DNA of 64,000 nt from Solibacillus sp. FSL R7-0682 (GTDB lineage: Bacteria; Bacillota; Bacilli; Bacillales_A; Planococcaceae), in NCBI RefSeq assembly GCF_038005985.1, contig NZ_JBBOUI010000001.1, positions 3,874,501-3,938,500 of the forward strand. The letters run 5' to 3'. Under the pieces are notes generated by a model, which saw only the letters and a list, made by a program, of their open reading frames with translations, did not search any database and had not been told where the DNA came from. This document shows, in pieces, positions 37,376-55,835 of the stretch (within the stretch, counting starts at the first letter, position 1; each line of letters opens with the position of its first letter). The translations under genes were made by a program, and so were the position numbers.

Positions 37376-38029
37376 TTATTTTTGTACGACAGGCGCTGGG
37401 TAATCAAAGCCTTTTGTATCTACTTCTACTTTTTTCATTTTTTGATCTTCTATTGGTTTATTATTACCATCACGCTCAGCTCCAACGATTGCATCCACAA
37501 CGTCCATACCTTCGATGACTTTACCAAAAGCCGCGTACTTCCCGTCTAAATCTGTTGTCTCTTCTACCATAATGAAAAACTGTGATCCTGCTGAATCAGG
37601 TTCATTTGTACGTGCCATTGATACAACACCGCGCTCATGAGCTAACGTATTTTCAAAGTCATTAGAAGAGAATTCACCCTTAATTGTATAATCTGGCCCT
37701 CCCATTCCTGTTCCATCTGGATCGCCGCCTTGGACCATAAAGCCTGGAATGACACGGTGGAAGATTAACCCATTGTAAAAGCCCTCTTCTATAAGTGAAA
37801 TAAAGTTGGCCACTGTATTTGGCGCTACCTTAGGCTCTAATTCCATCACAATTTGCTCATCATTTTCCATTGTAATTGTAACAATTGGATTTTCTTTTAC
37901 TTCTGATGCATAGTCTAAATTTTGTGGCTCTGCATCCTGTTTTGAAGAATCATTATTACATGCAGTTAATACTACTGCAAGTGCCATTATGATAAGCATG
38001 AATAAAAATTGTTTATTTCGTGAATACAT
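37376..38029 (-). CDS. Lipoprotein peptidyl-prolyl cis-trans isomerase (cyclophilin)
   Basis: 217 residues. A lipoprotein signal with lipobox LTAC (cysteine 24) precedes a cyclophilin domain: GLIFHRVIPGFMVQGGDPDG, GVVSMARTNEPDSAGSQFFI and YAAFGKVIEGMDVV carry the active-site arginine, phenylalanines and glutamine. It is anchored outside the membrane and likely helps fold exported proteins. AAAGGGGAGTTGAAATTACA precedes the ATG. Confidence 0.92.
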   Translation of the reverse strand: MYSRNKQFLFMLIIMALAVVLTACNNDSSKQDAEPQNLDYASEVKENPIVTITMENDEQIVMELEPKVAPNTVANFISLIEEGFYNGLIFHRVIPGFMVQGGDPDGTGMGGPDYTIKGEFSSNDFENTLAHERGVVSMARTNEPDSAGSQFFIMVEETTDLDGKYAAFGKVIEGMDVVDAIVGAERDGNNKPIEDQKMKKVEVDTKGFDYPAPVVQK

Positions 38030-38829: not shown

Positions 38830-39336
38830 TTATTCTTGCGCATTTAACACAAACGTATGATAGGCAATACCTTTATACTCCTTATCCGATGTCACTTTAT
38901 ATACATAATATTGCATTCCTTTTATATCAGGTACAATAAAAGACTCCTCTTTCACCTCAATTGGGATAATCTCGTCTCCTTGGTAAAGCATGAGTTCAAA
39001 ATGATTTCCTTTCGGTAACGTGCTGTAATTACTAAAATCATATTGAATTTTAACAACTTCCCCAATCTCAACTCTCCCTATAGGTAAATTGTGTTTCACT
39101 TCAACATCTTTCGGATGACGGGGTTCCATTTTTTTACACACTTTTATATCTTTGTTCCAACAAAATCGATCTGGATAAGCACTAAATGCTGCATCTTTTA
39201 TAATAATACTCACTTCACGAGGTTCAACATTTCCCACATAAACAGATTGTGTGTTCTCTATGGATAGAATTTCATCATTATTTGTACATCCGCTTACAAT
39301 AAAAAATGTAACAAAAATTAATAAAAGTCGTTTCAT
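38830..39336 (-). CDS. Hypothetical lipoprotein
   Basis: 168 residues from the ATG at 39336, preceded by AGGAGGGCGAAGG. A lipoprotein signal ends in VSGC (cysteine 17). The mature part is beta-rich with two cysteines close together (DRFCWNKDIKVCKKM), which may form a disulphide outside the cell. I do not recognise the family. Confidence 0.72.
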   Translation of the reverse strand: MKRLLLIFVTFFIVSGCTNNDEILSIENTQSVYVGNVEPREVSIIIKDAAFSAYPDRFCWNKDIKVCKKMEPRHPKDVEVKHNLPIGRVEIGEVVKIQYDFSNYSTLPKGNHFELMLYQGDEIIPIEVKEESFIVPDIKGMQYYVYKVTSDKEYKGIAYHTFVLNAQE

Positions 39337-39502
39337 CCTTCGCCCTCCTACTGTAAATATATACCACAATTATACATGACATCATAACATGTTCAATCTG
39401 CATTAATTTATTTATAAATTAAATTAATTGAAGGTATTTTTAGATACAGCTAGAAATAATATTATATAAGGTTACATATTACTTATTAAAGGATGAAACT
39501 AA

Positions 39503-40390
39503 TTGAAAAGTGAAATCGGAAGTAAACTAAAACTCATTAGAAAACAAAAAGGATTAACACAGCAGCAATTAGCCGATGGAATTTGTACACAAGCAATGAT
39601 TAGCCACTTTGAGAAAGGAGAATCAATCCCATCAAGTGTTGTCTTATATGAATTAGCTGACCGTTTGTCCATTGATATAAATGAATTCTTCACCGATCTT
39701 AAGCCCTCAACAAAACTTTTAGATAACCATAACCATATTCATCAACTAATTCGAAAGCTCGTCTCCCAGCATGACTATCCTTCTGTAAAAATTCTTGTAG
39801 AGGCAGAATTAGAAAAAAAATTTAATTTATCTTCTGAAGAGTTGGTTTTCTTGTACTGGCACAAAGGTATTTGCGAATGGGAGATTTCAAAGGATGCCCT
39901 AAGCGCACTTACTCTCTTTGAAAAGGCACTCAAAATTCCTCTAGATTCTAATAGCACATTGCCTATTTCAATTCGAAATAGCCGCGCAATCATCCATTTC
40001 AATCAAAGTAACTACACACTTGCGTTAGAAGAATATGAACGTTGTCTAAATCTTATTAAAGAAATTAAAGATGTAGATACGAGCATCGTTAAAAAAGTAT
40101 ATTTCGGATTATCGAGAGTTCATTTATACAATGGACAATATGAGCTTGCATTACTTTATTGTGAATCTGCTATTCAACTAGCTATTCAACAAGAATCCCT
40201 TTATTTACTTGGGGAACTGCTCTTCCAAAAAGGGCGCATTTATATAAAAACAAATGATTGGTACCATGGTAAATTTGCTTTAACTCAAGCAAAAACCATT
40301 TTTGAGATAGAAGGGAAAATTGAAAACATTAAAGTAATTAATAATTTACTTTATAAAGATGGAGAAAATGAGGAGGAGTTTCAAGAATGA
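39503..40390 (+). CDS. RRNPP-type quorum-sensing regulator (PlcR/NprR-like)
   Basis: 295 residues. An XRE-type helix-turn-helix covers about residues 5-62 (KLKLIRKQKGLTQQQLADGI, MISHFEKGESIPS). The rest is a series of helical TPR-like repeats (ALTLFEKALKIP, YTLALEEYERCLNLI, LALLYCESAIQLAI, KGRIYIKTNDWYHGK), as in PlcR, which is of similar length. This architecture binds a re-imported signalling peptide. The TTG start at 39503 has AAAGG ten bases upstream. Its stop codon overlaps the ATG of a small secreted-peptide gene, which strongly supports an RRNPP pair. Target genes are unknown; the ABC genes downstream are candidates. Confidence 0.85.
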   Translation: MKSEIGSKLKLIRKQKGLTQQQLADGICTQAMISHFEKGESIPSSVVLYELADRLSIDINEFFTDLKPSTKLLDNHNHIHQLIRKLVSQHDYPSVKILVEAELEKKFNLSSEELVFLYWHKGICEWEISKDALSALTLFEKALKIPLDSNSTLPISIRNSRAIIHFNQSNYTLALEEYERCLNLIKEIKDVDTSIVKKVYFGLSRVHLYNGQYELALLYCESAIQLAIQQESLYLLGELLFQKGRIYIKTNDWYHGKFALTQAKTIFEIEGKIENIKVINNLLYKDGENEEEFQE

Positions 40391-40548
40391 AAAAAGTGTT
40401 AAAGATTTTATTCGTTTCTACTTGTTTAATATGGTCTATCTCTCTTTCAAGTAACCTGCTTCTTTCTACAAATTCTGAGAAAGCTTTTTTTGATTATGTT
40501 GTGCCTTTCGGTCCTGATGATGATGATATCAAAGACGTACACAATTAA
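40387..40548 (+). CDS. PapR-like signalling pro-peptide, 53 residues (unannotated class)
   Basis: The ATG at 40387 overlaps the regulator stop codon (ATGA) and has GAGGAGTTTCAAG before it. The peptide begins MKKVLKILFVSTCLIWSISL, a basic start followed by a hydrophobic Sec signal core, and ends in EKAFFDYVVPFGPDDDD followed by IKDVHN. Size, signal peptide, location right after the regulator and overlap match papR after plcR. Within the tail, VVPFGP resembles the hydrophobic-proline-aromatic core of known PapR heptapeptides (ADLPFEF). Identification as a pheromone precursor is inference; processing sites are not known. Confidence 0.75.
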   Translation: MKKVLKILFVSTCLIWSISLSSNLLLSTNSEKAFFDYVVPFGPDDDDIKDVHN

Positions 40549-40688: not shown

Positions 40689-40732
40689 AAAAACAGCCAG
40701 TAGCAGGTTGTCTTCGCTACTGGCTGTTTTTA
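40689..40732 (+). terminator. Terminator after the regulator-peptide pair
   Basis: A 13-bp perfect stem (AACAGCCAGTAGC / GCTACTGGCTGTT) followed by TTTTTA. It separates the regulator-peptide pair from the ABC transporter genes, which therefore need their own promoter in the 100 bases that follow. Confidence 0.85.
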
Positions 40733-40829
40733 TAGCTGTAATTAAACGACTACTCTTCATCCTCATAGACTTATAAACATCGTAAATCTTAAATTTTCTG
40801 ACAAATGACATTTCTGTGGAGGTGGTAAA

Positions 40830-42095
40830 TTGATTCGACTTTTTCTATTTGAAATAAAAAAATTATCGCGTTCTTCATACTTCAAGTTTTTACTAACCTT
40901 TTTACTAGTTGTTGTAATTTCTTTCTATGTATACGCTTATGCGAATACAACGTCCATTGATACGATTATAGCTAGTGAACAGGATATGATATACCTCGCT
41001 GAGCAACAAGTAACTGAGATTAAAAATAAAATTGATGCGGGGATCGAGGAGCCTGGCCGTAATCTACAACAAGATTTAGAAATCACTGAACAAATACTTG
41101 CCCAAAATTATGCAATACTAGATGCACTCGAAAAACAAGACTGGTCCACTTACTCCACTCTACTCGCTAAAAATTACGAATCCTCCGTACAAATAGCGAA
41201 AGGAGAATTGCTTCAACAATCAATTAATAAATATATGTATCCAACACCGTACACTACCATATCCCTTGGTGATAAATATAAGTGGATGCAGCAACATGCA
41301 ATTAAACCTGTATTTCCTGTACATTACTTTTCATGGATGACGGCTTATGATGAGGAATTTACTGATCCGGTTATTGAAAATTTCGTTCTAACATCCTTTA
41401 ACAAGCATTCATCGACTGGGATGTATTTTTCCTATGAATTATTCGAATATGGACTTTCTCTTATCGGAATTATATTTTTACTGTTCCTTTTTAGCGATAT
41501 TGTAACAAAAGAGGGCTATGGGCGAAATGGGCCAATCCAATTTTTAAGAACACAACCAATAAAACGATATCAGATTTTATTTGTGAAGCTTTTTACGGTA
41601 TTACTTATTTCTATATTCCTTATAGCTCTAATATGGGGAATCGCTTTGCTTCTCGGTATTATTTTTGATGATATTGGTGATTGGTACTATCCTGTACTTA
41701 TTTATGGAGCAAATGATGTTTTATCATTTATGGCAATGGGAGAATTTTTAATTAGGAGCTTTAGTTTATTTATCCTACTTTTATTATTTAGCTATTCGCT
41801 CTTATTCTTTTATTCCATTATTACAAATCGTGCTATCCTGGCATTAGGTTTGACCATTACGACCTTTATATTAGGTACGCAAATAGTACCTCAAACTTTC
41901 CAATATAATTTTTCTCATTGGATACCATTTCACTATGTAAATGTATTCAAAATAGTAACAAATGAATATGCATTCCTTCATGATCAATTTTCATTTTCAT
42001 TACAAGTAGGATTATTGTCACTTTTAATAAGTAGTATTGTGCTATTAGCTCTGACATTTACTATTGCAAAGTTTAGAAAAGGAGGAATTGGATGA
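40830..42095 (+). CDS. ABC-2 type transporter permease subunit (first)
   Basis: 421 residues. One hydrophobic segment near the N-terminus (FLLTFLLVVVISFYVYAYA), a large extracellular domain of about 180 residues, then five hydrophobic segments in the C-terminal half, as in ABC-2 permeases. The TTG start at 40830 has GGAGGTGGTAAA before it. It overlaps the ATPase gene by four bases. The substrate is unknown; related exporters handle peptides or antibiotics. Confidence 0.82.
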   Translation: MIRLFLFEIKKLSRSSYFKFLLTFLLVVVISFYVYAYANTTSIDTIIASEQDMIYLAEQQVTEIKNKIDAGIEEPGRNLQQDLEITEQILAQNYAILDALEKQDWSTYSTLLAKNYESSVQIAKGELLQQSINKYMYPTPYTTISLGDKYKWMQQHAIKPVFPVHYFSWMTAYDEEFTDPVIENFVLTSFNKHSSTGMYFSYELFEYGLSLIGIIFLLFLFSDIVTKEGYGRNGPIQFLRTQPIKRYQILFVKLFTVLLISIFLIALIWGIALLLGIIFDDIGDWYYPVLIYGANDVLSFMAMGEFLIRSFSLFILLLLFSYSLLFFYSIITNRAILALGLTITTFILGTQIVPQTFQYNFSHWIPFHYVNVFKIVTNEYAFLHDQFSFSLQVGLLSLLISSIVLLALTFTIAKFRKGGIG

Positions 42096-42973
42096 TTGTC
42101 GAGGTAAAAGGGTTATTTAAAAAATATAAGAAACAGCTCGTATTGAAAGGTATTGATATTCAAATAGAAGAACCTCAGATTATTGCATTAGTAGGTCCTA
42201 ACGGTTCGGGAAAAACCACTTTAATGAACAGTTTAATGAACTTATTACCTTTCCATGAAGGTAGCATTCGGATTCTAGGGAAAAAGCATAACGATACTTC
42301 CTTATTTTATGAGGTTTCCTATTTACAAGATAACCGTATTTTATATGGAGATCTAACTGGTTACGATCACTTACGTTTCATATGTCGCATTCAAAAACTC
42401 CCTCGCGCTCGTATAAAAGAAGTAGCAGCATATGTAGGTATGGAAAGCTACTTAAAAAAACGTGTCCGCAGTTATTCTCTCGGTATGAAGCAACATCTTT
42501 TACTGGCAATGGCGATTATTAATCAGCCAAAATTAATCTTACTTGATGAGCCTGTTAATGGACTTGATCCAACTAGTGCCATTCACATGAGGAGTATCCT
42601 TCTAGATTTACATGAAAAAGGAACAACTATTATTATCTCTTCTCATAATTTAGATGAAATTGATAAACTGACAAATAATATTTATTTCATGAAGGATGGT
42701 GTTCTCTTAAAAGAATCATTAGAGGATTATTCAACAAGTCGCTACAAACTGACTGTATCTGATTTCGAGAAGGCAAAGGAAGTATTAGCTGGACAAGATG
42801 TGAATATTTCCTTTGACGATGCAACCATTTTGTTTGAAGAAACGGAAGTGTCACTCCAATCAGTTATTCATAGTCTTAATATTAACGGCATGGAAATTAA
42901 CAAAATAGAAAACTATAAAATTGGTGCTGAAAAACGTTATATGGAGCTTTTTGAAAGCGAGTTGGCGAGATGA
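42092..42973 (+). CDS. ABC transporter ATP-binding protein
   Basis: 293 residues. Walker A GPNGSGKTT (about residues 38-46), signature SYSLGMKQHLLLAMAI and Walker B LILLDEPVNGLDP, with ISSHNLDEID as H-loop, are intact. It drives the two permeases encoded either side. The order permease-ATPase-permease with four-base overlaps at both ends shows one translational unit. Confidence 0.92.
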   Translation: MIVEVKGLFKKYKKQLVLKGIDIQIEEPQIIALVGPNGSGKTTLMNSLMNLLPFHEGSIRILGKKHNDTSLFYEVSYLQDNRILYGDLTGYDHLRFICRIQKLPRARIKEVAAYVGMESYLKKRVRSYSLGMKQHLLLAMAIINQPKLILLDEPVNGLDPTSAIHMRSILLDLHEKGTTIIISSHNLDEIDKLTNNIYFMKDGVLLKESLEDYSTSRYKLTVSDFEKAKEVLAGQDVNISFDDATILFEETEVSLQSVIHSLNINGMEINKIENYKIGAEKRYMELFESELAR

Positions 42974-44082
42974 GAATGTTTCAATTTGAGATAAAGAAGA
43001 TTTTCTTTAATAAACGACTTCTTTACTTGTTGCTCTTTCTTCTAATTGGAATTGCACTATTGTTTGCAAGGAACTTTGCCTTTCAAGAATCGATTATGAA
43101 AGAACGAGAACAACAAATAATTTCGTACATTCAACAAGGTCAAAAAATTATTAACCAATATCAAACAACACTTGTTAAAGATCCAAATGATGAAAATACG
43201 AAGGCATTGCTTGTCATGATGACAAGCATGGTAGATACGTTATACGAAACCCGAACAGCATTTATCGAAAATGATTGGAAACAGGAGCTAGAGAAAGAAA
43301 ATCAATTTTTAAACGATGTATTAGCATTTAAAGCAGCTGGCGGAGATTACGCTCTACTTAACGATACGATACAACGAACAGTAGCTACGAATAAGCAACT
43401 ACTTACATCAAATATCCCTCCCGAAGCTGAAGGTTATAGTATTGCAGTGCCAAATTATTTGAAACAGGTTGTGGATATTCTTGTAAATTTCGGGGCTATT
43501 ATCATTATACTTATTGTAATAGGTGATATGCTGACCGTTGAATTTGAGCAACGAAGTATCAATTTTTTATATACTCAACCGTTGAAAAAAAGTACCATCA
43601 TCCATAGTAAGTTTTGGAGTGCAGTTGTTGTGTATGGCTTAGTTATATTTTGTGGACTAGCCACCGCCTTTGGAATTAGTGCTATGTTTGGCAAACAAGG
43701 TACTTTTTTATACCCTTTATTAGTTGAACAAGGTGACCAACTTAACTTTTTGACAATTTCAGAGTATCTCTTTTTCGCACTAACTTCTACAACGGTAATT
43801 GCTCTATTCGTTATTGCTCTTTGCTTATTAGTTAGCCTTATTTTTAAACACTCAATTGCTACATTACTCATTATAACGGTCATTCTAATTGGGGGTTATT
43901 TGTTACTTGGTCAACTAACATTTCCTTCAAAGGAATGGTTGAACCCCTTCCAATATGTGTTTACGAAAGAGACAATAATGTCTGTTGGGCACGACTGGTA
44001 TAAAGGGATTGCAATTACATTATTTTTAGCGCTTCTTTGTTATTTACTAGCAATTCTACGCATGCGCTTTATAAGAGTATAA
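42970..44082 (+). CDS. ABC-2 type transporter permease subunit (second)
   Basis: 370 residues. An N-terminal membrane helix (LLYLLLFLLIGIALLFA), an extracellular domain of about 130 residues and five or so C-terminal helices; MLTVEFEQRSINFLYTQPLK is a typical ABC-2 cytoplasmic loop. It resembles the 421-residue permease in layout (both have a QPLK/QPIK loop) and probably forms a heterodimer with it. Confidence 0.83.
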   Translation: MRMFQFEIKKIFFNKRLLYLLLFLLIGIALLFARNFAFQESIMKEREQQIISYIQQGQKIINQYQTTLVKDPNDENTKALLVMMTSMVDTLYETRTAFIENDWKQELEKENQFLNDVLAFKAAGGDYALLNDTIQRTVATNKQLLTSNIPPEAEGYSIAVPNYLKQVVDILVNFGAIIIILIVIGDMLTVEFEQRSINFLYTQPLKKSTIIHSKFWSAVVVYGLVIFCGLATAFGISAMFGKQGTFLYPLLVEQGDQLNFLTISEYLFFALTSTTVIALFVIALCLLVSLIFKHSIATLLIITVILIGGYLLLGQLTFPSKEWLNPFQYVFTKETIMSVGHDWYKGIAITLFLALLCYLLAILRMRFIRV

Positions 44083-44166: not shown

Positions 44167-44703
44167 TTAATGAATCGTTTTCCGCTCCATATACAAACTA
44201 TAGTTCGTTGCTTCTTTTAATGCCCTTTCTTCAGCAGGGATTCGAATTGAAAGAATAATGAAATTTAAAATAGTAAAGCAAATCGTTGTAAAGTATGCCT
44301 GAAACATAAGGGGCAATAGCGCAATTTCAAGGCAAACGATTAAATAGTTAGGATGACGTATATAAGCATATGGCCCTCTTGCAACTACATTAGCACCTGG
44401 TAAGATTATGATTTTTGTATTCCAAAATGCACCAAGTGATAATAGACACCAAACTCTTGCCAATTGTAATAATAAAAAATCAACAAGTAATATGACATTT
44501 GGAGGTTGTATTGATTTAAAATACATCACTTCTACAAGTAGACTAATAAAAAAACTTACATGTAACACTATCATAAAAGGATAATGGGAAGCACCTACTT
44601 CATACGCACCTTTTGCAAGCAACGCTTTTTCGTTTCTTTTTGCTATGAGCAACTCTACAAGTCTTTGAATAATAACTAAAGCAAAAACGACATAAAAAAA
44701 CAA
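44167..44703 (-). CDS. bpsB: Isoprenylcysteine methyltransferase-family protein (BpsB/YpbQ-like)
   Basis: 178 residues, membrane protein with about four to five helices. The ICMT-family C-terminal motif RGPYAYIRHPNYLIVCLEI and later RIPAEERAL are clear. In B. subtilis the partner BpsB O-methylates alkylpyrones made by the type III polyketide synthase. The TTG start at 44703 overlaps the synthase gene end region, with GGAGGAAGTAG as RBS. Confidence 0.85.
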   Translation of the reverse strand: MFFYVVFALVIIQRLVELLIAKRNEKALLAKGAYEVGASHYPFMIVLHVSFFISLLVEVMYFKSIQPPNVILLVDFLLLQLARVWCLLSLGAFWNTKIIILPGANVVARGPYAYIRHPNYLIVCLEIALLPLMFQAYFTTICFTILNFIILSIRIPAEERALKEATNYSLYMERKTIH

Positions 44704-53081: not shown

Positions 53082-53792
53082 GTGGGGGTCCTAATTCAGA
53101 ATTCTAAGTATCTAGATTTCCTAACAAAACTTGGTATTGGTGGTGCACATCCAGGCGGTATTAATCTAACCAAAGAAATTTTTAAGAAGGAAACTATAAA
53201 AAAATCTTCTCGTATTTTAGATGTGGGGTGCGGTACCGGGCAAACGGCAGCTTATTTAGCCTATAAATATGGAGCATATGTAACTGGCATAGATATCAGT
53301 CCAATAATGGTGGCAAAAGCCAAAAGACGAATAGAAAAAAAACACCTAGCAGTAAACATCATTCATTGCTCAGTAGAAGAAATCCCACTGCCAGATAGTG
53401 ATTTTGATTTTGTTATATCTGAATCCGTTCTTTCCTTTGCAAATAAACCAAGAGCACTTAAAGAAATCTTTCGGTTATTAAAAACCGGTGGACGTTTCGT
53501 TGCGATTGAACAAACGATTAATTATCCACTAAAGGAAGACGAAGAAACCGAAATAAAAGAATTTTATGGATTTGATTCCCTCTCTACGAAAAAAGATTGG
53601 GTTACTTTTTTTAGGGAGGCTGGTTTCGAACATATCCGTATACAAAAAAATACAGCCATACATTCAGTGCCTGATTTCCATTATTCAGAAGATATTGCCC
53701 CTGAAATTTATGAGATTATGCAAAAACATTTTGAGTTAATTTTCAAATATCAAGGAAATTTAGGCTATAGAATTTATACGTGCACAAAATAG
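53082..53792 (+). CDS. SAM-dependent methyltransferase, tandem copy 1
   Basis: Up to 236 residues. SAM motif I is RILDVGCGTGQTAAYLA, and later VTGIDISPIMVAKAK, FDFVISESVLSFANKPRAL and LLKTGGRFVAIEQ complete a class I fold. The N-terminus contains LTKLGIGGAHPGG, shared with copy 2. There is no ATG: the GTG at 53082 lies within the strong RBS AAGAAGGTGG, and an ATT codon 12 bases on is an alternative. Substrate is unknown. Confidence 0.8.
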   Translation: MGVLIQNSKYLDFLTKLGIGGAHPGGINLTKEIFKKETIKKSSRILDVGCGTGQTAAYLAYKYGAYVTGIDISPIMVAKAKRRIEKKHLAVNIIHCSVEEIPLPDSDFDFVISESVLSFANKPRALKEIFRLLKTGGRFVAIEQTINYPLKEDEETEIKEFYGFDSLSTKKDWVTFFREAGFEHIRIQKNTAIHSVPDFHYSEDIAPEIYEIMQKHFELIFKYQGNLGYRIYTCTK

Positions 53793-53886: not shown

Positions 53887-54603
53887 GTGGTCGCTATTTC
53901 GAATTCCAATTACAATTATCTAAATTTTTTAGCGAAGTTTGGTATTGGCGGTGCGCATCCTGGGGGGATTGAATTATCAAAGAAAGTCTTTCAAAAGGAA
54001 AGTATTAAAAGATCTACACAAATTTTAGATGTGGGATGTGGCACCGGGCAATCGGCTGCTTATTTAGCGCTAACCTATGGTGCCAACGTTACAGGGATTG
54101 ATAATAACACCATAATGGTTGAAAAAGCAAAAGAGCGAATGGCAAGTGGACCGTTATCGGTAAAAATTATTGAAGGTTCCATAGAAAATACTTCTTTACT
54201 TGACGACCAATTTGATTTAATTATTTCAGAATCTGTTCTCTCTTTTGTAAATAAGCCACGTGCCTTAAAGGAGATTTCTCGATTATTAAAGAGTGGTGGG
54301 CGCTTAATAGCCATTGAGCATACACTGAACGAGCATACTATAAACAAAGAAGAGGAAAATGAAATTAAACAGTTTTTTGGCTTTGACGCGCTTTTAAAAG
54401 AAAACGATTGGATTTCATTACTCCAACAAGCTGGTTTTCATAACATTGAAGTTGAAAAAGGTATCGTAGTGGATTCAGAGGCAGATTATCATTTCTCAAA
54501 GGATATCGATCTGGAATATTATTCCACCATGGAAAAGCTAGCTGAGATAAACGAAAATTATGAAGAAATTTTGAGTTATCGAATTTACTTATGTACGAAA
54601 TAA
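53887..54603 (+). CDS. SAM-dependent methyltransferase, tandem copy 2
   Basis: Up to 238 residues, clearly a paralogue of the preceding gene: FLAKFGIGGAHPGGIELSKK, QILDVGCGTGQSAAYLA and SESVLSFVNKPRALKEISRL are nearly identical. As in copy 1 the GTG at 53887 lies in the RBS (AAGAAGGTGG) and an ATT at 53896 aligns with the ATT of copy 1. A 94-base spacer separates the copies, so each may have its own promoter. Substrate is unknown. Confidence 0.8.
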   Translation: MVAISNSNYNYLNFLAKFGIGGAHPGGIELSKKVFQKESIKRSTQILDVGCGTGQSAAYLALTYGANVTGIDNNTIMVEKAKERMASGPLSVKIIEGSIENTSLLDDQFDLIISESVLSFVNKPRALKEISRLLKSGGRLIAIEHTLNEHTINKEEENEIKQFFGFDALLKENDWISLLQQAGFHNIEVEKGIVVDSEADYHFSKDIDLEYYSTMEKLAEINENYEEILSYRIYLCTK

Positions 54604-55198: not shown

Positions 55199-55502
55199 AA
55201 TCACTCGCTAATTTTACGTAATACGAAAATTATAATTATATAATGTAGATAGTTAAAAGAGCGCAATCTATTTATTCTAATTAAATCATGATTATGTAAA
55301 GTCATGGTTTTTATTATGCAGTTAATTGGCTAGCATGAATTAGGTATTGGAACTAGCTCAAGCTGGCTAATTCTTGATGTTAAATATCAGTAAGTTTATG
55401 AACCAATAAATACCATTATAAAAAGAAGGATTACTAATAACCTCCAAAGAATATACAATATAGGAAATTTTTAATTCATAATAAAAAACTTGGAGGTCAC
55501 AA
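55199..55502. other. Non-coding stretch upstream of the small secreted protein gene
   Basis: About 304 AT-rich bases with no frame that has an RBS. It must hold the promoter of the next gene; no strong consensus element or operator was seen. Confidence 0.5.
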
Positions 55503-55835
55503 ATGAAACAAACATCATCCATTTTTGCAGCACTTATTTTAGCATTAGGTATTATTACGAGTATACCACATCCATCTTCTGCTACAACTACTCAATCCGA
55601 TATTGTCGAAATGCAAGTACAGTCTAAAAAGGTAGTTGAAACGGTGTATTATGAAGGTATCATCTCATTCCCACCAAAAACAATTTACTACAATAAGGGC
55701 GGATGGACAGGTACATTAAATTTAGGTTTTTCTAGATTTGACCATGATAGGAATCAAACAGTATCTCAATATTCAGGTATTGTTAGTTGTACCGGGAATT
55801 GTTATTTACCAACTAGCTTAACTGACATAAAATAA
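55503..55835 (+). CDS. Small secreted protein of unknown function
   Basis: 110 residues. A Sec signal peptide (MKQTSSIFAALILALGIITS) ends near HPSSA-TT. The mature part of about 82 residues is beta-rich, with a tyrosine-rich segment (VVETVYYEGIISFPPKTIYY), then GGWTGTLNLGFSRF, and two cysteines in SCTGNCYLPTS that could form a disulphide. TTGGAGGTCACAA precedes the ATG. I do not recognise a family. Confidence 0.72.
   Translation: MKQTSSIFAALILALGIITSIPHPSSATTTQSDIVEMQVQSKKVVETVYYEGIISFPPKTIYYNKGGWTGTLNLGFSRFDHDRNQTVSQYSGIVSCTGNCYLPTSLTDIK

Follow-up and report, generated by a model that had tools for sequence, protein, structure and literature searches.

A regulator gene and an overlapping small gene on the chromosome of Solibacillus sp. 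FSL R7-0682 very probably form a PlcR-PapR-type quorum-sensing pair of the RRNPP class, a function predicted from the sequence of the window, a stretch of 64,000 nucleotides of contig NZ_JBBOUI010000001.1. The assignment is well supported, since the regulator matches the RNPP_C domain family and lies near PlcR, the tail of the peptide is under selection and small ORFs follow 12 of the 13 regulators of its clade. Compared with its sisters, the branch of the window appears to be set apart by an acidic extension of the peptide and by changed positions in the receptor pocket. The receptor falls into a clade of PlcR-like proteins, found in the family to which Metasolibacillus and Viridibacillus belong, whose members keep the pheromone gene beside that of the receptor. 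Since the two remain linked and the peptide ends differ, receptor-ligand co-evolution becomes testable. Throughout this clade, linked as it is to peptide genes, the "strictly conserved" RNPP asparagine is replaced, a finding relevant to the way in which such receptors hold their peptides.

Results

The regulator and the overlapping peptide gene

The first-pass annotation had described an HTH/TPR regulator whose stop codon overlaps by ATGA the start of a peptide ORF with its own ribosome-binding site, and both ORFs and the site were found as described (Table 1). Against Pfam, the regulator reached 45.7 bits with RNPP_C (cut-off 26.5) and also passed the cut-off of HTH_3; TPR models matched too, and this was the only RNPP_C match in the whole genome. 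When the regulator was compared with known receptors, its best solved relative was PlcR (PDB entry 2qfc), with E values of 2.2e-14 for the single sequence and 7e-35 for the clade profile, the profile match spanning residues 4-273 of 2qfc. PlcR was the sole RNPP entry in the PDB that aligned along almost the full length, in a comparison made against the RNPP entries of the PDB and with the sequences of TprA and PlcRa outside it. The GICTQAM motif and S34 of the HTH domain were invariant in 13 of 13 clade members.

The pro-peptide, MKKVLKILFVSTCLIWSISLSSNLLLSTNSEKAFFDYVVPFGPDDDDIKDVHN, has a basic N-terminus, a hydrophobic stretch and then a polar tail, and it reached the cut-off of no curated protein family. 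An adjacent small gene with exported-peptide features, as expected beside an RNPP receptor, is thus present, export being judged by hydropathy. The Sec-type signal segment is a prediction from hydropathy and the basic N-terminus. The peptide gene of the congener G158 has the ribosome-binding site GAGGAGGA. The peptide gene is easily overlooked, as it has only 53 codons and overlaps a neighbour.

Table 1. Features of the regulator-peptide unit and its surroundings (window positions)
Feature	Position	Strand	Remarks
Small lipoprotein-like gene	38830..39336	-	Divergent, same variable block; 52% identity in G158
PlcR-box-like palindrome TATATAAGGTTACATA	39463..39478	+	1 mismatch from TATGNAN4TNCATA
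PlcR-like RNPP regulator (receptor)	39503..40390	+	295 aa, TTG start, stop TGA 40388-40390
Helix-turn-helix DNA-binding domain	39527..39688	+	Residues 9-62, Pfam HTH_3, 47.2 bits
TPR peptide-binding domain	39749..40318	+	RNPP_C (Pfam), residues 83-272
Gly202	40106..40108	+	Aligns with PlcR Asn201, the RNPP asparagine (single-sequence and profile alignments)
Glu238	40214..40216	+	Aligns with PlcR Gln237
Ribosome-binding site GAGGAGGAG of peptide gene	40370..40378	+	Within final codons of regulator, 8 nt 5' of ATG
Pro-peptide gene	40387..40548	+	53 aa, ATG 40387, TAA 40546-40548; ATG overlaps regulator TGA
Conserved tail YVVPFGPDDDDIKDVHN	40495..40545	+	Constrained relative to G158; core candidate and extension
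Candidate core YVVPFGP	40495..40515	+	In conserved tail
Extension DDDDIKDVHN	40516..40545	+	3' of YVVPFGP in tail
Strong intrinsic terminator	40689..40731	+	Ends regulator-peptide unit; -27.1 kcal/mol, z -9.0
ABC-2 permease (candidate target operon, first gene)	40830..42095	+	Syntenic in G158, 65% identity
ABC ATPase (candidate target operon, second gene)	42092..42973	+	80% identity in G158
ABC-2 permease (candidate target operon, third gene)	42970..44082	+	Syntenic in G158, 55% identity
Small secreted-looking protein	55503..55835	+	110 aa, 44% identical to G158 gene

Selection on the peptide tail

Codon-level conservation of the tail, whose absence would have spoken against the first-pass reading, was found in the sole species pair available, the window genome and G158. 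Over the 15 codons compared from Tyr37 there were 5 synonymous and 3 nonsynonymous differences (dS 1.15, dN 0.09, dN/dS about 0.08), and the signal part gave dS 1.5 and dN 0.57. With counts rounded to whole numbers, the synonymous against nonsynonymous comparison within the tail gave a Fisher p of 0.004 and the nonsynonymous changes of tail against signal part a p of 0.0004. In this one species pair, strong purifying selection acts on the tail of the peptide, and its signal segment is drifting. The regulator and its orthologue in G158 differed with dN 0.12 and dS 1.04.

In the window and 40 related loci, 411 distinct genes with a length of 100 aa or more were screened for a small ORF behind them, with a filter for 40-80 aa, a start between -12 and +150 nt from the stop, a ribosome-binding site, basic residues at the start, a hydrophobic stretch and a polar end. 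Nine of the 411 genes passed, six of them clade regulators (window, L084, L029, L030, L031 and L033) and three of them genes outside the regulator clade. The filter overlooked the clade members L032 and L034, and at L035-L053, which are RNPP relatives at a greater distance, it found nothing.

Relatives and distribution

At the family level, 19 of 261 genomes matched at 1e-15. Within the genus the pair occurs in 2 of 16 genomes, namely the window genome (G000) and G158 (one of the 15 others), whose regulator is 81% identical and has the same ATGA overlap. Eleven further clade regulators (38-44% identity) are spread over three other genera, one with Metasolibacillus and Bacillus ndiopicus and one with Viridibacillus soli; Metasolibacillus and Viridibacillus belong to the Caryophanaceae (Planococcaceae). 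Relatives in named genomes were found with an alignment as query, and a single-protein query gave none. The 13 family regulators formed one clade (support 100/99) with the window and G158 on a long branch; in this midpoint-rooted tree the program flagged long branches at the junction where the window branch meets the two Metasolibacillus groups, and the clade of 13 is independent of that junction.

The small frame expected behind orthologous regulators was intact and of secreted type in 12 of the 13, and each of these 12 ORFs starts with basic residues, continues with a hydrophobic stretch and closes with a short polar tail. The 13th, in Viridibacillus soli (L034:4867-5050), is broken: its pro-peptide ORF ends after 32 codons, and LPDLPTQP is encoded further on in a different frame. 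The clade tails comprise DIPDLPSQH, LPDLPSRH, LPDLPSRP, LPDLPSLP, INIPSEP, INIPDRP, DIPAEP and INIPLRP, many of them PapR-like. Tandem pro-peptide-like copies per regulator were seen at L028 and L032, the copies of L028 ending in LPDLPSLP and LPDLPSRP, and a second similar ORF of 68 aa lies at L031:5630-5836.

In a sample of the class, 22 of 398 genomes matched at 1e-55, including the window genome and one genome of the Metasolibacillus group. Among the 25 new class-level loci (L150-L174), 15 had a small secreted ORF nearby (13 divergent, 2 downstream) and 10 lacked an adjacent pro-peptide, L164 being partly masked. Twelve of the 15 ORFs end in LPxxH (LRLPYQH, LTLPPQH, YTLPFQH, DLPNQH, DLPPCH, ELPLMH); the other three end in EELPHENGLKV (L162), IDLPPQHGFERTI (L163) and NELPPLY (L167). 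The 17 relatives in Alkalibacterium and Marinilactibacillus (L037-L053, 26-29% identity), genera of the Lactobacillales, had no PapR-like secreted ORF in a crude downstream and divergent scan. In one RRNPP survey, no Lactobacillales were found to have PlcR systems. Three PlcR-like regulators stand in a row in Rossellomorea aquimaris (L035:2877-6011), with no pro-peptide recognised by the crude scan. Another member of the family, L017 (regulator 29% identity, RNPP asparagine kept), has at 2515-2670 of the unoriented locus a divergent ORF with the very PapR-like end DDDEELPFRH.

No relative was found at 1e-10 among 50,697 phage records. Relatives were found at 1e-15 in 15 of 72,556 plasmid records, with at most 32% identity among the ten rows listed, and such regulators therefore do occur on plasmids. 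For the window copy a mobile element was rejected, as this copy is chromosomal and syntenic with G158.

The receptor pocket

Pocket positions were read from the alignment to PlcR. The window regulator lacks the conserved TPR asparagine of RNPP receptors, having Gly202 instead. This residue has been called strictly conserved across the RNPP superfamily, and the N227A exchange in RapF impairs peptide binding (PMC3601957, in part). In 59 related rows the position was N in 39, G in 16 and S in 4, and every one of the 13 clade regulators is among those with G. Twelve of these 13 have an intact pro-peptide-like ORF next to them, and so have L159 (G) and L174 (S) outside the clade, the latter two with peptides of the LPxxH type. 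The asparagine is therefore not strict in these PlcR-like relatives, and its loss does not amount to loss of peptide sensing.

The positions of PlcR Lys87 and Lys89 are Ser88 and His90 in the window regulator. Loss of both basic positions as a mark unique to the window branch was dropped, as the window has His at the second and the first was neither Lys/Arg nor His in 4 of 30 rows (L001, L008, L017 and L167).

PlcR Gln237 is a contact of PapR Glu6 (PMC6568020, in part). Where the receptor is non-acidic at this position (238 in the window), peptide position Pro+2, the second residue past the core proline, tended to be acidic (29 pairs; table 1,2/24,2; p 0.042); with PlcR included, p was 0.037 for 19 collapsed types and 0.009 for 30 rows, all in statistics that ignore relatedness. 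Peptides with an acidic Pro+2 are paired with receptor Asn or Gln in L009, L011 and PlcR and with Glu in L162, and position 238 is Glu or Asp in 24 of the 26 other pairs. In the Metasolibacillus group a peptide Glu goes with receptor Asn/Gln and a peptide Arg with Asp. L162, L036 and L167 are exceptions, and a weak covariation of Pro+2 with position 238 is suggested.

Promoter box and terminator

G158 has a box site with one mismatch at the aligned place before its regulator. In the window, a second box-like site with one mismatch (55397-55412) precedes the 55503 gene, and there were 9 one-mismatch sites against 4.65 expected, a number reached by 7 of 100 shuffles. The genomes were searched with a degenerate palindrome built on the promoters of the two regulators, those of G000 and G158, at no more than 2 mismatches and with the reversed pattern as control, and no enrichment was found (G000, 72 against 93 in the control; G158, 79 against 82). 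The counts lay below the control in both genomes and do not point to a PlcR-box regulon. No site with one mismatch or fewer was found within 200 nt before or 130 nt behind the regulators of the 11 other clade members and L017, nor was there a box in the stretch before the ABC operon (40732-40830; best, 4 mismatches). That the site before the window regulator may be functional is suggestive only. The terminator behind the peptide gene was missed by a consensus scanner and is kept in G158 (-22.7, z -5.2).

Neighbourhood and candidate targets

An ABC operon of three genes follows the terminator. The next best match of its ATPase in the genus had 42% identity. The nearest NCBIfam model was that of lantibiotic-protection ATPases, TIGR03740, of which it is not a member, because its 179.5 bits are under the cut-off of 309.75. 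The products of the 38830..39336 and 55503-55835 genes matched no Pfam or NCBIfam family. In G158, a gene for a 107-aa secreted-looking protein stands directly behind the peptide gene and ahead of the terminator, and its only homologue in the genus at 1e-6 is the 55503-55835 gene.

At the thresholds used, the ABC ATPase, the 55503 protein and the pair shared one distribution in the genus, the same two genomes out of 16. In 12 of the 14 congeners that lack the pair, other genes stand between the flanks of the block (the peptidyl-prolyl isomerase gene at 37376 and the genes at 44167 and 44705); the remaining 2 differ. Because of the distribution shared with the pair, the exporter operon and the 55503 secreted protein may be considered its likeliest targets, as candidates by association. 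Since the pair is in only 2 of 16 genomes, its co-occurrence with the ABC operon could also reflect mere linkage, or a close relationship between G000 and G158. Peptide-binding proteins of the SBP_bac_5 family, which could serve peptide import, gave 11 matches in 10 frames of the genome. Elsewhere in the window, two adjacent similar methyltransferase-like ORFs (53082-53792 and 53887-54603) look by eye like a tandem duplication.

Discussion

Proposed mechanism

As read from the sequence, the genes of regulator and peptide make up a single unit that ends with the strong terminator, and the ATGA overlap would be expected to couple their translation. After export of the pro-peptide by Sec, signal peptidase and an extracellular protease would cut it down to a short peptide around YVVPFGP, or alternatively DDIKDVHN. 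An oligopeptide permease could then take the short peptide back in, and the peptide would bind the concave TPR face of the regulator. With the peptide bound, the regulator would change how it binds DNA, both at its own promoter and at a small number of targets, of which the adjacent ABC exporter operon and the small secreted protein are the most likely.

The mature signal

Placing the mature peptide around YVVPFGP is a guess. Aligned by eye, VPFGP of the window pairs with the ends IPSEP, IPDRP, IPAEP and IPLRP of the sister peptides. In the window ten residues, DDDDIKDVHN, follow VPFGP, and G158 has VPLG and then DDDIKDIHNY. The description as a PapR-like peptide is hence only partly true: the P-F core is there, but the tail YVVPFGPDDDDIKDVHN has ten extra residues and lacks the LPxxH or IPxxP end of its relatives. 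It likewise lacks the C-terminal end of PapR type (xLPFEx), with which it shares only the P-F core.

DDIKDVHN is at least equally well conserved, and both segments therefore remain candidates for the mature form. It is possible, though we consider it rather unlikely, that the regulator is a pheromone receptor whose signal is the C-terminal DDIKDVHN instead of YVVPFGP, in line with most RRNPP systems, which have their pheromone at the C-terminus. Between G000 and G158, DDIKD(V/I)HN has one conservative change (G158 adds a final Tyr), and YVVPFGP/YIVPLG has two changes next to a two-residue gap; moreover, pro-peptides with a single pheromone carry it in their C-terminal region (PMC9765709, in part). 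On the other hand DDIKDVHN has no proline-hydrophobic core, unlike the sister tails and the class-level tails, and internal pheromones have a precedent in CSIPYEY of PapRa (PMC3519770, in part; compare also IDLPPQHGFERTI of L163).

Tentatively, and with some doubt, the branch of the window may have changed the format of its pheromone, from an IPxxP end to VPFGP with an acidic tail. The Asn to Gly exchange of the clade would have come earlier, Lys87 and Lys89 would also have changed, and recognition would work without the standard anchors. In this scheme the system would control the variable block of ABC exporter and secreted protein.

Other explanations of the small ORF

Several points count against the pair: Asn201 is replaced by Gly202, the peptide has no LPxxH or IPxxP end, the codon comparison covers a single species pair, the pair is rare in the genus, the box-like site is not enriched and is missing before the ABC operon, and some relatives have no adjacent pro-peptide. 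The small ORF could encode a translation-coupled secreted protein with another job, for example a bacteriocin-like or envelope peptide served by the ABC exporter, with the regulator sensing something else. The resemblance of the adjoining ATPase to lantibiotic-protection ATPases, below the cut-off as it is, and the co-occurrence of the ABC operon with the pair speak for this. However, at L029-L033 the small ORF accompanies the sister regulators and the ABC genes of the window are missing from the flanks of up to 4 kb, the sister tails are PapR-like, and the tail is far more constrained than the remainder of the peptide, and we consider such a role improbable.

Still less probable, to a degree that makes it hardly credible, is decay of the system, with an RNPP receptor that has degenerated or lost its partner and a small ORF that is a mere remnant. 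The lost asparagine and the rarity of the pair in the genus would fit decay, but purifying selection acts on both partners, as the dN and dS values of regulator and tail indicate, and Gly is at the asparagine position in every clade member, 12 of which have an intact peptide ORF. A functional receptor-pheromone pair thus remains our preferred reading.

Comparison with known systems

The Rgg/MutR, NprR, AimR, TprA and ComR receptors have the general RRNPP logic in common with the pair. PDB entries of Rgg/MutR type match only about the first 70-100 residues of the regulator, and NprR, AimR and ComR were not among the PDB matches listed.

The first-pass annotation had suggested that the pair may be undescribed in this lineage. 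Among the matches listed in open-access full texts, no RNPP pair was named in Solibacillus, Metasolibacillus or Planococcaceae/Caryophanaceae, and three surveys of RRNPP systems (PMC10075063, PMC9765709 and PMC12700828) do not mention Lysinibacillus, Planococc-, Solibacillus or Caryophan- in their main text, as far as available. The suggestion thus stands for these texts, but as PMC10075063 reports 11,872 strict pairs, the pair may already be listed there.

PlcRa, a PlcR paralogue of 297 aa, is similar in size to the window regulator, and the heptapeptide proposed for it, CSIPYEY, lies within the pro-peptide, a placement that YVVPFGP would share (PMC3519770, in part). In contrast, papRa lies upstream and encodes 93 aa, and the modelled contacts of PlcRa include Asn205, whereas the window has Gly at the Asn201 position of PlcR; PlcRa was set apart here by its published description (same source). 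The pairs of Metasolibacillus, Viridibacillus and their kin within the family (L009-L016, L026-L034) belong to the same clade and share the downstream peptide gene and the same Gly. They differ in that the first start of the small ORF lies 9-123 nt past the stop of the regulator and in that tails such as LPDLPSRH and INIPSEP have no extension.

Compared with PlcR-PapR of the Bacillus cereus group, the peptide gene of the window overlaps its regulator by ATGA, its core continues as GPDDDDIKDVHN where PapR ends in FEF, Gly stands for Asn201, Ser/His for Lys87/Lys89 and Glu for Gln237, and the box counts of the genome give no evidence of a PlcR-box regulon. The two systems share an HTH and TPR receptor with a domain of RNPP_C type, a small gene for an exported peptide that immediately follows the regulator gene in the same orientation (the PlcR arrangement according to the available text of PMC9765709) and a hydrophobic-Pro-aromatic core, VPF in the window and LPF in PapR.
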